DNA of 64,000 nucleotides, from positions 558,001 to 622,000 of the forward strand of contig NZ_FOZE01000001.1 in NCBI RefSeq assembly GCF_900113225.1. The letters run 5' to 3'. The translations under genes were made by a program, and so were the position numbers. Under the pieces are notes generated by a model that saw only the letters and a program-made list of their open reading frames with translations, was not told the origin of the DNA and did no database searches. The stretch comes from Mitsuaria sp. PDC51 (GTDB lineage: Bacteria; Pseudomonadota; Gammaproteobacteria; Burkholderiales; Burkholderiaceae_C). Shown here piece by piece: positions 20,477-27,689 of this stretch. Numbering within the stretch: position 1 is the stretch's first letter; each line of letters begins with the position of its first letter.

Positions 20477-20566
20477 GTCGCTCAATTGGCTGTCGTTCAG
20501 GTGGCCGTCGCTCCGGTCACCATCGCTCGGGTGCCCATCGCTCAAATGGTCATCGCTCAGGTGGCC
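20477..20566. repeat. Imperfect 15-bp tandem repeat, six units
   Basis: Six consecutive 15-base units share the core (A/G)TCG(C/T)TC followed by a variable GGT-rich half, for example GTCGTTCAGGTGGCC and ATCGCTCAGGTGGCC. They lie between the stop of the binding-protein gene and the C-terminus of the convergent C39 exporter, whose stop codon is inside the last unit. Copy-number change would alter the exporter's last residues or the intergenic spacing. Confidence 0.8.
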
Positions 20567-22674
20567 AGCGTGTCTCTCACCGCCGGGCGCGGCAGTTCGT
20601 CGACTGCGCCGCCCTCCAGCACGATCACCCGCTCCGCGGCCGCGATCGTGTCCGGCCGGTGCGCGATCATCAATCGCGTCAGCGGCAACCGGGCCAGGTT
20701 GGCGGTCACCGCGCGCTCCCGGGTGACGTCGAGGTGGCTGGTCGCCTCGTCGAGCGCCAGGATCCTCGGCCGCCGATAGATCGCCCGCGCCAGCAGCAGC
20801 CGCTGCTTCTGCCCCCCCGACAGGCCGCTGCCCAGGTCCCCGACCAGGGTCTGGTAGCCCATCGGCATCCGGCAGATGTCCTCGTGGATCTGCGCGAGCA
20901 TCGCGGCGGCCTGCACCCGCTCCGGATCGGGCTGCGTGTCGAAGCAGGCGATGTTGTCCGCGAGCGAGCCGGTCAGCAGCACATCCTCCTGCATCACCGT
21001 GCCGATCTGCCGGCGCACGTTCCTCAATCCGAGCTGCCGCATCGGCATGCCGCCGTAGCGCACCTCGCCCTCCTCGGGCGCCAGCAGCCCCAGCAGCACC
21101 TTCAGCAGCGTCGTCTTGCCCGAGCCGCTCGGGCCGGTGATCGCGATGCTCTGGCCGGCAGGCACCGTCAGGTTCACGTGGCGCAGGATCCAGGGCTCGC
21201 GCTCGCCGTAGCGGAAGCTGACGTCGCGCAGTTCCAGGCTGGCCTCCAGGTGCGCGAGGTCATGGTCCGGCACCTCGTCGGGTTCGGGCGGCTCGAGCGC
21301 GATGTCGGCCAGGCGTTCGGCATGCAGGCCCAGCATCCGCAGTTCCACCGCGTAGTTGATCAGCGCCGACACGCGGCCGGTGAACTGGCCCTTGTAGCTG
21401 AGGAACGCGAACAGCATGCCCACCGTCATCGTGACCGTGCCGGCCTGTTGCCCGTCCAGGATGAGCCCGGCGCCGAGGAACAGCACCAGCAGGTTCTCCA
21501 CGCCGAAGAGGAAGGTGTTGGCGGTGCTCATCGCCATCGACAGCTTGGCGGTGCGGACATCGCGGTTCTGGACCTCGACGATCAGGTTCTGCCATTGCGC
21601 GCGCCGCTCCTGCTCGCGGCCAAAGAGCTTCAGGGGCGTCATCGCCCGCAGGGTCTCGAGGAAGTGCGTGCTTTCCCGCGCGGCGACGACCAGCCGTTCG
21701 GCGGCCGCGTCGCGCAGCGGCCGGTAGGCGGCCCAGCGCAGCAGGCCGTACAGCAGCACGGCGGCGATCACGACCAGCGCCAGCGGCCAGGCATAGATCA
21801 GCATCATGACCAGCGCGGCCACACCCATCAGGCCGTCGAGGAGGGCCTCGATCGCGGCGGTGGTCAGCGTCTTTTGGATCGCGTCGACCGCACCGAAGCG
21901 CGAGGTGATGTCGCCGAGGTGGCGCCGCTCGAAGAATCCAACCGGCAGCCGCAGCAGATGCGCGAAGGTGTTGCCCCGCCATTGCAGCGACAGCGTCTGC
22001 GTCAGCAGGACCAGCATCCACGAACGCGCCAGGCCGAGCGCCGTCTGGGTCACCAGCAGCAGGCCGAAGCCGATCAGGAGCACCTTGAGCAGGTCGCGGT
22101 CGCCCGAGGTGAGGACGTCGTCGATGATGAGCTGGTTGCACAGCGGCGCGACGATCGCGAACAGCTCCAGCACCAGCGCGACGAGCAGGATCTGCACCAG
22201 CGATCGACGCAGGCCGAGCACCTTGCCGGTGAGCGCTGCGAGCGAGACCCGCGGCGGCGGCGCGGCGGGCTTGAAGTCGGCGTTGGGCGTCAGTTCGACG
22301 GCGACGCCGGTGAAATGCGCGGAGACCTCGTCCAGGCTCAGCCGGCGCTCGCCGACGGCCGGGTCGAGCACGGTCACGCTGCCGCGGCGGACCCGGGCCA
22401 GCACCACGAAGTGGTTCATGTCCCAGTGCAGGATGCAGGGCAGCGACAGCTTGGCGAGGAAGGGCAGGTCCAGCTTCAGCGGCCGGCCGGAGAAACCAAT
22501 GCCCGCAGCCACCTCCAGCAGGTCGCGCAGCTTCATGCCCTTGAGCGCGACCGGGAAGCGCCGGCGCAGGTCCTGCAGCGTCGTGGCCTGGCCATGGGCC
22601 GTCGCGATCATCGCCAGGCAGGCCAAGCCGCATTCGGCCACCTCGGATTGAAGGATCGGGGTGGGCCGGGTCAT
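20557..22674 (-). CDS. C39-peptidase ABC exporter for a double-glycine peptide (CvaB-like)
   Basis: The 705-aa protein is a peptidase-containing ABC transporter: it cuts the leader of a small peptide after Gly-Gly and exports the mature part. The C39 domain (about residues 5-125) has Gln9, catalytic Cys15 in EVAECGLACLAM, His88 in HWDMNHFVVL and Asp104 in VLDPA. Transmembrane helices cover roughly 160-440. The nucleotide-binding domain has Walker A GPSGSGKTTLL (about 510), signature LSGGQKQR (about 620) and Walker B ILALDEATSHLD. Its start overlaps the upstream 247-aa gene by 4 bases. With the adaptor and precursor upstream it forms a complete peptide export locus; the outer-membrane TolC would come from elsewhere. 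Confidence 0.93.
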   Translation of the reverse strand: MTRPTPILQSEVAECGLACLAMIATAHGQATTLQDLRRRFPVALKGMKLRDLLEVAAGIGFSGRPLKLDLPFLAKLSLPCILHWDMNHFVVLARVRRGSVTVLDPAVGERRLSLDEVSAHFTGVAVELTPNADFKPAAPPPRVSLAALTGKVLGLRRSLVQILLVALVLELFAIVAPLCNQLIIDDVLTSGDRDLLKVLLIGFGLLLVTQTALGLARSWMLVLLTQTLSLQWRGNTFAHLLRLPVGFFERRHLGDITSRFGAVDAIQKTLTTAAIEALLDGLMGVAALVMMLIYAWPLALVVIAAVLLYGLLRWAAYRPLRDAAAERLVVAARESTHFLETLRAMTPLKLFGREQERRAQWQNLIVEVQNRDVRTAKLSMAMSTANTFLFGVENLLVLFLGAGLILDGQQAGTVTMTVGMLFAFLSYKGQFTGRVSALINYAVELRMLGLHAERLADIALEPPEPDEVPDHDLAHLEASLELRDVSFRYGEREPWILRHVNLTVPAGQSIAITGPSGSGKTTLLKVLLGLLAPEEGEVRYGGMPMRQLGLRNVRRQIGTVMQEDVLLTGSLADNIACFDTQPDPERVQAAAMLAQIHEDICRMPMGYQTLVGDLGSGLSGGQKQRLLLARAIYRRPRILALDEATSHLDVTRERAVTANLARLPLTRLMIAHRPDTIAAAERVIVLEGGAVDELPRPAVRDTLAT

Positions 22675-23414
22675 GAATCCTCCTGCCGCACGACGATGAC
22701 GTACGAGCCGCCGCCCGGCGTCACCGTGACCTCATGGACCTGTTCCTCCAGAGGCACGACCACCGCGGGGCCGCGGGCGGTCCGCCGGACCTCGAGGTTC
22801 ACGGGCGCGCCGCTGGCATCGCGTCCGGTCACGGTCAGCGCATCGTCGAGCGGCAGGAAGGTCACATCGGCGCACTGCAGGTCTCGCGCTTGCAGCGCCT
22901 GCAGCCAGCCCTGGGCCTTGAACATGGCCACCGCCTGTGCGCAGGCCTCGCGGAGCAGGTCGACTGGGTAGCGGTCATCGGCGCGCGGGGCGATCGCAAT
23001 CCAGTATTCGAGCGACACGCTGCCTTTCGGCCGATTGACGACGAATCGGGCCTTCGCGGCGTCGACCGCGAATGCGGCGGGCAACGGGGCCCATCCTTTT
23101 CTTGTCGGGATGGGAATGAGGGTGTCGGCGTCCTCGACCGCGAGCGCGAGCTGCTCGAAGGAGAAGTTGGCGGGATCCGATGGCAGCAGGCGCAGGTACC
23201 ACTGCACCCGGTCCTGCGGGCCCGGGTAGGACTTGACGAAGGCCAGAGCCTGGCCCGCCCCGCGAAAGGGAATGTGATGCCGATGGACGGACTGTCCGGA
23301 GATCTCAGACCGGGGGAGCGGGATCGGGTCCCGGAGCTCGGGCTCGGCCGAAGCGCCGCCGAGGACCGCGAATCCGATCAGCCCGAGCAGGCCGGTGAAC
23401 AGGGTGCGTTTCAT
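22671..23414 (-). CDS. Exported protein of unknown function in the peptide export locus
   Basis: The 247-aa product has a signal peptide (MKRTLFTGLLGLIGFAVLGG) and a periplasmic domain of unrecognised family. Two cysteines (REACAQAV, LQCADVTF) could form a disulfide. The C-terminal part (VPLEEQVHEVTVTPGGGSYVIVV) looks like beta strands. It overlaps the C39 exporter by 4 bases, so the two are co-translated and it very probably serves the same pathway. A role in immunity, folding of the peptide or periplasmic delivery is possible; none is shown by sequence. Confidence 0.7.
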   Translation of the reverse strand: MKRTLFTGLLGLIGFAVLGGASAEPELRDPIPLPRSEISGQSVHRHHIPFRGAGQALAFVKSYPGPQDRVQWYLRLLPSDPANFSFEQLALAVEDADTLIPIPTRKGWAPLPAAFAVDAAKARFVVNRPKGSVSLEYWIAIAPRADDRYPVDLLREACAQAVAMFKAQGWLQALQARDLQCADVTFLPLDDALTVTGRDASGAPVNLEVRRTARGPAVVVPLEEQVHEVTVTPGGGSYVIVVRQEDS

Positions 23415-23455
23415 TGCTGGAGGCTGTCATGCGCCGTCGCGGCGCGACGCTGTGA

Positions 23456-23483
23456 GCGGCCGGCCACGGTGGTGGCCGGCCGC
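23456..23483 (-). terminator. Perfect 12-bp hairpin between the precursor gene and exporter genes
   Basis: Arms GCGGCCGGCCAC and GTGGCCGGCCGC pair perfectly around a 4-base loop, 38 bases after the precursor stop codon and 41 before the next start. No T tract follows on the minus strand. In microcin operons such a structure after the precursor often limits read-through so that the peptide is made in excess over its exporter; that role here is inferred. Confidence 0.55.
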
Positions 23484-23521
23484 GGGTGAGGTCGAGTCAA
23501 CGCAAGGTCTGGGCAGGCGCA

Positions 23522-23671
23522 TCAGCTGATGCGCGCCGCCGCCGGGCCGACCAGCCCGAAGTGCGCGCCGAGGTAGGACGCGGCGCAGCGGACCATGAAC
23601 TTGGCGAACTTGGACAGGAATCCGCCGCCGCCATGCACTTGATCGATCTCGTCTTGGGTCAGTTCCGTCAT
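23522..23671 (-). CDS. Class II microcin-like precursor with double-glycine leader
   Basis: The 49-aa peptide has a 15-residue leader, MTELTQDEIDQVHGG. Counting back from the Gly-Gly it shows the canonical pattern: Leu at -12, Thr at -11, Glu at -8, Ile at -7, Val at -4 and Gly-Gly at -2/-1. C39 cleavage would release a 34-residue core that begins GGFLSKFAKFM, carries about five basic residues (Lys21, Lys24, Arg28, His37, Arg47) and no acidic residue, has one Cys (29), and can form an amphipathic helix followed by a Gly/Ala-rich hydrophobic end. The start ATG at 23669-23671 is preceded by GGAG 7 bases upstream. It lies between the adaptor and exporter genes. Cationic antimicrobial or signalling activity is inferred. 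Confidence 0.87.
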   Translation of the reverse strand: MTELTQDEIDQVHGGGGFLSKFAKFMVRCAASYLGAHFGLVGPAAARIS

Positions 23672-23758
23672 TTCAATCTCCGTCAGTTGAAGGGCCGAGA
23701 ACGGTCGGCCGCCGTTTCCCCAGCGTCGATCACTCGCCGCCGGAAGATCGATGTCCCG

Positions 23759-25033
23759 CTAGATCCGCCTGGCCGTCGCCAGCAGCGGTTCCAGCAGCCA
23801 CTCCCAGATGCGCCGGTGCTCCAGCGTCACGTCGGCGTCGAGCGCCATGCCGGCGCGCAGCGGCAGATCGCGGCCATACGCGGCGATCGCCTGGCGCTCC
23901 AGGCGCACGTCGATGCGGTACAGCGGCTCGTTGGCCTGGGCCGCGCTGACCAGCGCCTGCGCCTGTCCGGACGGCAGGTCCTGCGGCGCGATCGGCGTCG
24001 GGCTGACGTGGGCCACCTGGCCCAGCGCCATGCCGAACTTCTGGTACGGGTAGGCCGCGTAGCGCAGCCAGACCTGCTGTCCGGGCTGGATGAAGCCGAC
24101 CGTGCGGCTCGGGGCATAGAGCTGCGCCACCAGCACGTCGGCGTCCGTCGTCGCGGCGCTGACCGGCGTCAGCGTCACCAGGGTCTGGCCGGCCTGCACC
24201 GCCTGGCCCGCATGCAGCGGCAGCGCGCTGACGCGGCCATCGCGCGGCGCCGTCACCTCCAGACCGGCCCGGGCCTCGAGCTCCGCGCGCTCCTGCTCGA
24301 GTTGCGCCGCGGCCCGGTCCAGCTGCGCCAGCGAGGTCGCCAGCGTCGTCGGGATCGCGACGAGTTCCGCCTCGATGGCGCGCGCCTCGCGGCTCAGGTT
24401 CTCGACCGACCGCTGCGCGCCGCGTTCCCGCGCCCGCAGGTCGAGCAGTTCCTCGTCCCGTTGCTGCACCTGGGTGTCGGGCACGAAGCCGTTCTCGGCC
24501 AGGGCGGCGTAACGCGACCGGCTGCGCTGCGCCAGCGCGACGCGGGCGCGTACCATGTCCAGCTCCTCGCCCGCCTGCGTCGCCTCCAGGCGCAGGCTGC
24601 GCAGGCGGTCGCTGAGCGTGTCCTGCCTGTCCCCGGCCTGGCGACGCTGCAGCTGGCGCTCGGTCTCCAGGCTGCCGGCGCGCGTCTGGATCGCGCGCAG
24701 GTTGAGCGCGGTCATGTCGCTGCCGTCCACCCGGCGCTCGCTGCGCACCCGCAGCAGCGGCTGGCCCTGGCGCACCTCGTCGTCCTCGCCGACGAGCACC
24801 GCCTCGACCTGCCCCGCCAGCGGCGAGGACACCTGCAGCAGTCCGCCCACCGGCATCAGCAGTCCCGGCACGCGGGCCTTGCGCGAGACCTGGCCGATCA
24901 GCGCGAAAGCGATCAGCGCGGTCGCCAGCAGCACCGCCACCGCGGCCACCACCTGGAAGGCCGGCCGCTGCGCGACGCGGATGGTGCCCATCCATGGCGC
25001 TTGCTGGAACTCCTGGACCGCCGCTCGAAACAT
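23759..25033 (-). CDS. HlyD/CvaA-family periplasmic adaptor for peptide export
   Basis: The 424-aa membrane fusion protein links an inner-membrane peptide exporter to an outer-membrane channel. It has a short cytoplasmic N-terminus (MFRAAVQEFQQAPWMGTIR), one transmembrane helix (about residues 30-50), a first lipoyl half (LLQVSSPLAGQVEAVLVGE), a coiled-coil hairpin of about 180 residues, the second lipoyl half (APRDGRVSALPLHAGQAVQ) and a beta-barrel region (FIQPGQQVWLRYAAYPYQKFG) shared with CvaA-type proteins. The start at 25033 has AAGGAG 6 bases upstream and excludes a long Arg-rich extension. The precursor gene follows 87 bases later. Confidence 0.92.
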   Translation of the reverse strand: MFRAAVQEFQQAPWMGTIRVAQRPAFQVVAAVAVLLATALIAFALIGQVSRKARVPGLLMPVGGLLQVSSPLAGQVEAVLVGEDDEVRQGQPLLRVRSERRVDGSDMTALNLRAIQTRAGSLETERQLQRRQAGDRQDTLSDRLRSLRLEATQAGEELDMVRARVALAQRSRSRYAALAENGFVPDTQVQQRDEELLDLRARERGAQRSVENLSREARAIEAELVAIPTTLATSLAQLDRAAAQLEQERAELEARAGLEVTAPRDGRVSALPLHAGQAVQAGQTLVTLTPVSAATTDADVLVAQLYAPSRTVGFIQPGQQVWLRYAAYPYQKFGMALGQVAHVSPTPIAPQDLPSGQAQALVSAAQANEPLYRIDVRLERQAIAAYGRDLPLRAGMALDADVTLEHRRIWEWLLEPLLATARRI

Positions 25034-26354: not shown

Positions 26355-27689
26355 TCAGAAGGTCCTGGCCTCGATCGCCGCCCTGACACGGTCCAGCGCC
26401 GCGCCCAGCCGCACCAGGTCCACCGACCCCAGTGCCAGCCGGATCGCATGCGGCGCCTGCGGCGTGGTGGCGAAGGGCTCGGCCGTCGACACCGACACCC
26501 GCTCGCGCTGCAGCGCCATCGCCACCTGGTCGGCGCGCACGGCCTCGCCCAGCGGCAACCAGACGAAGTAGGACGACGGATGCGCGATGCGCTTCATCGT
26601 CCCGAGGCGTTCCGCCACCAGGCGCTGGCGGCGTCGCGCGTCCTCGCGCTTGTGCGCCTCGAGCCGGGCCACGGTGCCGTCCTCCAGCCAGCCGGTGGTG
26701 ATGGCCGTCATCACGCCGGGCGTGTTCCAGGTCGTCGCGCGGATCGCCCGTTCCAGCGCGTGGACCCGCGCGGCCGGCGCGACGGCGAACCCCACCCGCA
26801 GCCCCGCCGCGACGCTCTTGGAGAACCCCGACACGTAGACGGTCCGCTCGGGCGCCAGCATCGCCAGGGGCGGCGGCGGATGGTCGGCGAGGTAGGCGTA
26901 GGCGCCGTCCTCGATGATCAGCAGGTCGTGTCGCCGCGCGAGCGCCACCAGCTCGCGCCGGCGCGTGGCCACCATCACCCAGCCGAGCGGGTTGTTCAGC
27001 GTCGGCATCGTGTAGATCGCCTTGACGCGGCGGCGCCGGCACAGCGCCTCCAGTGCGTCGAGGTCGGGCCCCGCGCCGGCCGCCGGCACCGGCGCCAGTT
27101 CCAGCCGCTGCATCCCGGCCACGAGGCGGAAGCCGGGATAGGTGAGCGCATCCACGGCGACCACGTCGCCAGGCTCCAGCATCGCCATCAGCGTCACCGC
27201 CAGGCCGTGCTGCGCGCCGTCCACGACCAGCACCCGGTCGCCTTCGACCTCGAGGCCCCGTCGCCGCAGATGGCGCGCGATCGCGGCGCGGTCGGTGGGC
27301 CGGCCGCCATGCGGCTGGTAGCGCAGCAGCGCTTCCAGGTCGCCCGCGCCGGCCAGCTGGCGCAAGGCGCCGCGCAGCAGTTCCGCCTGACCGGGCAGCG
27401 ACGGGTAGTTGAAGCTGAGGTCGACCATGTCCGCCGCCACCGCGTCCAGGTCTACGCCCTGGCCGGGCGCGAGCGCGGTCTCCTTGACGAAGGTGCCGCG
27501 GCCGGTCTCGCCGCTGATCAGTCCCATCGCCCGCAGCTCGGCGTAGACGCGGGTCGCGGTGACCAGCGCGAAGCCCTCGCGGGTCGCAAGGTCCCGATGG
27601 GTCGGCAGCCGCGCGCCCGCGGGCAGGGCGCCCGATCGGATCTCCGCCGCCAGCCGGTCCACCACCGCCTTGTACCTGGGCTCCGCCAT
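26355..27689 (-). CDS. MocR-type PLP-dependent transcriptional regulator
   Basis: The 444-aa protein has a GntR winged helix (about residues 8-70: LPAGARLPTHRDLATREGFAL, then TRVYAELRAMGLI) fused to an aminotransferase-I fold. The PLP region shows TLNNPLGWVM, IIEDGAYAYL and the Schiff-base lysine in VSGFSKSVAAGLRVGF. MocR proteins sense PLP or amino-acid-like ligands and usually control a divergent gene. Here the EamA exporter starts 90 bases away on the opposite strand, with an AT-rich repeat region between them, so it is the likely target. Confidence 0.92.
   Translation of the reverse strand: MAEPRYKAVVDRLAAEIRSGALPAGARLPTHRDLATREGFALVTATRVYAELRAMGLISGETGRGTFVKETALAPGQGVDLDAVAADMVDLSFNYPSLPGQAELLRGALRQLAGAGDLEALLRYQPHGGRPTDRAAIARHLRRRGLEVEGDRVLVVDGAQHGLAVTLMAMLEPGDVVAVDALTYPGFRLVAGMQRLELAPVPAAGAGPDLDALEALCRRRRVKAIYTMPTLNNPLGWVMVATRRRELVALARRHDLLIIEDGAYAYLADHPPPPLAMLAPERTVYVSGFSKSVAAGLRVGFAVAPAARVHALERAIRATTWNTPGVMTAITTGWLEDGTVARLEAHKREDARRRQRLVAERLGTMKRIAHPSSYFVWLPLGEAVRADQVAMALQRERVSVSTAEPFATTPQAPHAIRLALGSVDLVRLGAALDRVRAAIEARTF

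Follow-up and report, generated by a model that had tools for sequence, protein, structure and literature searches.

The stretch of Mitsuaria sp. PDC51 DNA analysed here (the window, 64,000 nucleotides) contains a putative peptide export locus at positions 20557-25033, in which four genes, all on the minus strand, follow one another in the order adaptor, precursor, 247-amino-acid (aa) protein and exporter. The first gene encodes a HlyD/CvaA-type periplasmic adaptor of 424 aa (P0003; 23759..25033), recognised by its Pfam domains, and the second, read from its translation, a double-glycine (GG) precursor of 49 aa (23522..23671) with orthologues at related loci (one at L010, two at L016 and a diverged one at L099). 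The third encodes a protein with an N-terminal signal peptide (P0001; 22671..23414) which, from its sequence and from family comparisons, is our candidate for a periplasmic self-protection protein, and whose place between adaptor and exporter we refer to as the slot. The fourth encodes an ABC exporter of 705 aa that contains a C39 peptidase (P0002; 20557..22674), as judged from Pfam, from relatives in the PDB and from its residues C15, H88 and D104. An intergenic leader with a conserved box, traced by a box search in 16 genomes of the genus, precedes the precursor gene (23672..23758), and an intergenic region with a perfect 12-base-pair hairpin, evaluated by its fold z, follows it (23415..23521). 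An earlier sequence-only reading had placed the adaptor, the precursor, the exported 247-aa protein and the C39 exporter in the same direction, which the reading frames and Pfam assignments bear out, and had the last two genes overlapping by 4 bases, which they do at 22671-22674.

The locus is more than a chance arrangement of open frames, because its products are 77% (adaptor), 92% (precursor), 79% (247-aa protein) and 95% (exporter) identical in amino acids to those of Roseateles chitinivorans (L010), because the majority of changes between the two fall on third codon positions, and because dN/dS, taken as the quotient of computed values, is 0.29, 0.19, 0.30 and 0.11, in the same order. A methyltransferase gene (PF10672) flanks the operon on one side and a solute-binding-protein gene (PF00497) on the other, and relatives of both border it in all five clade loci examined (L010, L016, L098, L099 and L100). 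Two genes from the operon, past the methyltransferase gene, lies a MocR-like GntR/aminotransferase regulator gene (26355-27689, minus strand), the nearest regulator seen.

The exporter has the Pfam domains Peptidase_C39 (PF03412, 4.5e-32), ABC_membrane and ABC_tran, and its PDB relatives include 4ry2, an 'ABC-type bacteriocin transporter' (3.4e-92), and ComA, 8hf4 (2.4e-82). As the sequence-only reading had stated, C15, H88 and D104 are all present; together with Q9 they are retained in 43 of the 43 aligned exporter loci (13 of the 56 sampled loci lie outside the alignment), so that the catalytic residues, whose absence from homologues had been named as a point to watch for, are kept in every aligned case. 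The adaptor matches HlyD_3 (9.7e-11), Biotin_lipoyl_2 (6.8e-12) and HlyD_D23 (2.6e-11) in Pfam and type_I_hlyD in NCBIfam (1e-36, under the curated cut-off of that model). The suggestion that the export parts are complete except for TolC proved right: a TolC gene is not found at the locus, and the genome has 45 OEP (PF02321) domain matches, 0 of them inside the window, which places the TolC-type genes elsewhere in the genome.

The precursor consists of a MTELTQDEIDQVHGG leader of 15 residues, which would be cut after GG, and a 34-aa core, which is cationic (net charge +4) and partly amphipathic. The leader peptide is nearly identical across the five precursors of the clade. The Pfam matches of the precursor are weak and below cut-off (ComC 0.03, Bacteriocin_IIc 0.05); biotin carboxylase models also matched it weakly, at E 0.009 or higher, and these matches were judged to be due to chance. 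The box AACGGCGG[C/T]CGACCGNN..CGGCC stands once upstream of each of these five precursors and at no other site in the 16 genus genomes, in which a control pattern had 0 matches, and the region carrying it is not unusually structured (fold z -0.45). The hairpin downstream of the window precursor has a fold z of -2.43, and in its L010 equivalent (z -2.94) bases have changed and still pair; similar inverted repeats, one with a T run, were read by eye 3' of both L016 precursors. We suggest that the hairpin may be an attenuator or a processing element, giving more peptide message than downstream message, and the upstream box and the downstream hairpin apparently travel with the precursor as one module.

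The 247-aa protein begins with a Sec-type signal peptide, MKRTLFTGLLGLIGFAVLGGASA (judged by eye), and matches none of the Pfam or NCBIfam families at E<=1, and thus neither DUF2987 (PF11205) nor the TraB/PrgY family; the profile of its family likewise has no sequence relative in the PDB at E<=1. Among seven family members two cysteines are invariant, and no Ser or His is found among the invariant residues. The protein diverges fast, with 32-36% identity to the L016 copies as opposed to 77% for the exporters. An AlphaFold model from a two-row alignment (pLDDT 52.8, pTM 0.49) was not used, Foldseek against the PDB giving nothing at E<=0.001.

Within the genus the protein keeps company with the precursor. 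Its close family occurs in three of the 16 genomes (four copies), always at this locus and only with this precursor and exporter, and precursors at E<=1e-4 occur in four, again all at this locus (one in the window, one in G688, two in G288 and one in G695; L010 and G688 were counted as one), with weak further precursor-like matches at E 0.037 (G695:C43) and at E 0.5-1. In G288 (L016) the order is adaptor, precursor 1, protein A, protein B, precursor 2 and exporter, and precursors and proteins number 2/2 there and 1/1 in both the window and L010. Proteins A and B share 64% identity, and their identity to the window protein is 35-36%. In G695 (L099) the precursor has an acidic core (net -3, compared with +4 in the window), and in place of the 247-aa gene there is a 27-codon frame, MKRTLLTALLALLSIAVLQAFATWPDR, which overlaps the exporter start by 4 bases, is signal-peptide-like and has 13 of its 27 residues identical to the N-terminus of the window protein. 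G692 and G690 (L098, L100) have neither a precursor of this kind nor a 247-aa gene, and there the adaptor adjoins the exporter. The exporters of these six loci form one clade (SH-aLRT 100), and across the six, cationic precursors and 247-aa-type genes are equal in number. Downstream of the exporter of L098 lies a different GG candidate.

At a number of loci beyond this clade the slot is occupied by other proteins. Our sample comprised 56 distinct exporter loci, namely the window, L010, L016, L020, L022 and L098-L128 from the genus and 20 of the best matches of a family search (L158-L177); as that search found such exporters at E<=1e-30 in 132 of 399 genomes, the sample covers a part of them and leans towards near relatives. 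Slot genes were called from open frames, and inspection by eye was the basis for membrane spans, signal peptides, the HExxH motif and the ClpP-like membership of L121. The tree of exporters comprises 42 rows, with several long branches that make parts of it unsure; it omits L102, L112 and L116 by manual choice, L165 for its short exporter frame, L097 because it duplicates L010, and also L117-L120, L122, L123 and L125-L128, where no adaptor was found. The adaptor abuts the exporter in 20 of the 56 loci, no window-like adaptor was found in 11, intervening genes without a clear precursor are present in three (L114, L158, L175), and one is L099. The other 21 have a precursor and one or more further genes between adaptor and exporter, and these occupants are of several unrelated kinds.

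The 247-aa family fills the slot in three of these 21 loci (window, L010, L016) and ClpP-like secreted proteins do so in five (L020, L121, L164, L166, L168). Four aligned ClpP-like proteins share S.GG, C.S.CANY and HG; their matches to ClpP-related NCBIfam models are weak (E 1.6e-4 to 3.5e-3, in every case far short of the cut-off), and their profile has no PDB sequence relative at E<=0.1. Rce1/CAAX-like proteins (PF02517) are found in four (L165 3.1e-14, L168 3.5e-17, L171 4.4e-18 and, below cut-off, L167 0.0074), L168 holding both this and a ClpP-like gene, and TraB/PrgY/GumN proteins (PF01963) in two (L115 9.7e-12, L163 3.6e-12). Three slots contain small membrane-type proteins only (L101, with DUF6404 at 8.6e-14, L107 and L124), and the occupants of five have no family assignment (L161, with an HExxH motif, L169, L170, L172 and L173). 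In pneumococcal bacteriocin loci, genes for CAAX proteases and for membrane proteins are regarded as immunity genes (PMC4860687), and in enterococci PrgY is thought to break down the pheromone that a donor cell itself makes (PMC7117660). Our main argument is that, because the occupants include CAAX-type and PrgY-type proteins, the slot may serve self-protection. The remark in the sequence-only reading that no classical immunity gene is visible was right for this locus, and it is the sister loci that carry immunity-type genes in the same slot.

Some exporter loci of the sample are organised in other ways. The second exporter locus of the same genome (L022:8263-8505, plus strand; C4 near 1498904) has an 80-aa GG precursor, whose core starts and ends with APKGTW, upstream of the adaptor; adaptor and exporter overlap, and a similar precursor is present in G688 (L108). 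The third (L020:10017-11488, minus strand) has a GG precursor of 190 aa that carries a poly-glycine tail, then a secreted ClpP-like protein of 278 aa in the slot, and a further C39-like match of this genome (C6:2249959-2250363) falls within a 5,554-aa open frame. Elsewhere in the genus, L117-L120, L122 and L125 contain small GG precursors in arrays of 2 to 5, each of which closes with GGPQ[VIL].ND and a short tail. The C39 exporters near these arrays have 42-44% identity to that of the window, and no window-like adaptor was detected. At L165 (G251:C69) the exporter frame ends early (199 aa; 216-aa open frame), and the adaptor, the precursor and the CAAX-like gene are present.

The wider relatives of the 247-aa protein are found in a different setting. 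A single-sequence search of 299 family genomes outside the genus detected it in two genomes (three loci) and a profile search of 399 genomes of the order in 13 besides its own (23 matches), and the flanks of 23 of these 26 loci were examined. The expected co-occurrence of the family with C39 exporters held for the close subfamily in the genus but not for these wider relatives, since a C39 exporter is present at 0 of the 23 loci. A MipA gene, in turn, lies within 2.2 kb in nine of the 23 (L017-L019, L047-L052), within 250 bases in eight of those nine, and seven of the nine also have an OmpR-type regulator and a histidine kinase (Pfam on examples). By hhalign the window subfamily is related to the MipA-neighbour proteins (99.5%, E 4.9e-23, 162 columns) and, in a further profile comparison, to L056 plus L061 (95.1%, E 3.1e-8), L056 being a remote member that itself matches DUF2987 (PF11205) at 2.7e-10. 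We know of no function for DUF2987. The MipA of P. aeruginosa binds polymyxins and contributes, together with MipB, to the activation of ParRS, and the authors of that study note that a two-component system is encoded beside mipA in most cases (PMC10936184). Identity of the 247-aa protein as MipB was considered and dropped, as the same source describes MipB as a lipoprotein with a beta-lactamase fold.

Starting from what is directly observed, namely the anatomy of the locus, the co-occurrence with the precursor, the swapping of the slot and the homology to the MipA-neighbour family, we favour an explanation in which the locus would make a short cationic, partly amphipathic peptide. To judge from the families of its parts, the C39 domain of the exporter would cut the 15-residue leader after GG, and the exporter, working with the HlyD-type adaptor and with a TolC-type protein from elsewhere in the genome, would export the 34-aa core. 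The 247-aa protein would reach the periplasm by the Sec route, where one disulfide, C158-C181, probably holds it, and might bind or neutralise peptide that enters or re-enters the periplasm and so protect the producer; it would thus be immunity-like, and soluble rather than membrane-bound. Its origin may lie in recruitment from a periplasmic-type family that elsewhere sits beside MipA, often with a two-component system. This explanation agrees with the matched counts, with the loss of the gene where the core is acidic, with the swapped slot, with the fast divergence of the protein and with the envelope neighbourhood of its family, and we put the probability that the 247-aa protein is a periplasmic self-protection protein binding the cationic peptide at roughly one half. 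In this view the peptide would be toxic, and the protein would reside in the periplasm, bind it there and thereby protect the cell. The sequence-only reading had singled out this protein as the best candidate for a new function, such as immunity or periplasmic chaperoning; the complete export locus and the interest of its exported gene stood, and of the two roles immunity is the one we favour.

Several points weigh against this explanation. The immunity proteins of verified class II microcins are 51-216 aa long and tend to reside in the inner membrane (PMC9746304), and the 247-aa protein is unlike them. L099 is an exception to the matching counts if every precursor of the kind is counted, as it keeps a precursor almost without the 247-aa protein. 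The structure model is of low confidence (pLDDT 52.8) and has no usable fold match, five of the 21 slots hold proteins without family assignment, and the ClpP-like and GumN occupants are at most candidates for an immunity role. As for MipA, no such gene is present at 14 of the 23 wider-family loci, the three MipA genes of this genome all lie outside the window and far from the operon, and the connection is one of genomic neighbourhood only. In the sole paper found on a DUF2987 protein, that protein was lowered, not raised, under a cationic disinfectant in Aeromonas (PMC10272739); it is a remote relative of the 247-aa protein, and the result neither helps nor settles the matter.

Lastly, the peptide may instead be a signal, and this is the strongest rival, even if we regard it as rather unlikely. 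The peptide would then be a pheromone and the periplasmic protein its receptor or damper, which would relay the signal to a histidine kinase encoded at another place in the genome. Such a role would agree with the seven of 23 wider-family loci that have both MipA and a two-component system, with the presence in the same slot of L115 and L163 of a PrgY/TraB-type protein, a type to which the removal of self-pheromone is ascribed in enterococci, and with the three MipA genes of the genome. However, none of the four genes of the operon is a kinase or a regulator, and the nearest regulator seen is the GntR/aminotransferase gene beyond the methyltransferase gene. Moreover, when the MipA, kinase and response regulator of wider-family loci were used as queries, the 64-kb window gave no MipA or kinase match at E<=1e-3, and the response-regulator query found one weak 69-residue match 25 kb away. 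It seems improbable that the slot protein is a maturation factor that trims or modifies the peptide before release: several other slot occupants are peptidase-like (ClpP-like, Rce1-like and one with HExxH), but no Ser or His is invariant in the seven members of the 247-aa family, and C39 exporters normally release a finished core. Least probable of all is a role in bringing the peptide to TolC, as a periplasmic chaperone or as an accessory of the exporter, for although the 4-base overlap with the exporter gene would suit it, same-clade exporters 83-84% identical to that of the window (L098, L100, L099) are intact without the 247-aa protein and unrelated proteins hold the slot in other loci.

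The unusual part of the locus is the exported candidate protector together with the swapping of the slot. Only ten class II microcins have been verified, and their immunity proteins are described as having no obvious sequence similarity to each other; the published search for such proteins considers candidates that lie near the peptide and have at most 250 residues (PMC9746304). No description of this locus or of the slot pattern was found in the available parts of open-licence PubMed Central papers. A protein with a signal peptide that is count-matched to cationic peptides, in a slot that is swapped, offers a simple route to further peptide/protector pairs in Burkholderiales. More speculatively, and with less confidence than in the explanation favoured above, double-glycine loci of Burkholderiales might carry an interchangeable self-protection slot that takes in entire classes of exported protein, among them the MipA-neighbour type, the ClpP-like and the PrgY/GumN-like. 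The 247-aa family would then consist of soluble immunity proteins of the periplasm that derive from a module for sensing peptides at the envelope, and the self-immunity of bacteriocin producers would be tied to the sensing of polymyxin-type peptides. If it is true that the MipA-neighbour family binds cationic peptides generally, an unannotated family beside MipA and two-component systems would gain a testable function.

Compared with known systems, the locus resembles the MipA and two-component-system loci (P. aeruginosa mipBA-parRS, PMC10936184) in that wider-family genes lie near MipA in nine of 23 loci, and it differs from them in that the operon of the window has neither MipA nor a kinase, and its 247-aa protein sits with a peptide exporter. 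With Pseudomonas MipB, a lipoprotein with a beta-lactamase-like fold (PMC10936184), only the neighbourhood is shared, and the two are set apart by description, not by sequence. The link to DUF2987 (PF11205) is a remote one between profiles, through L056, and the window protein itself reaches E<=1 with no Pfam family. A member of the PrgY/TraB pheromone-shutdown proteins fills the equivalent slot in L115 and L163, and the 247-aa protein has no match to that family. Closest in layout are the class II microcin systems, such as microcin V, which have in common with the window a double-glycine precursor, a C39 ABC exporter with Cys/His/Asp, a HlyD-type adaptor and TolC-type proteins elsewhere in the genome. 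In contrast to them, the precursor of the window has no significant similarity to the Pfam MccV model, the only microcin model compared (E 0.2, below cut-off), its core is only 34 aa long, and no membrane span was seen in the candidate immunity protein, which carries a signal peptide. With regard to a cognate immunity protein, the 247-aa candidate adjoins the precursor and is equal to it in number except at L099. Because the layout fits, a relation to MccV was not found and any antibacterial activity is putative, the locus is best described as microcin-like rather than as a microcin.

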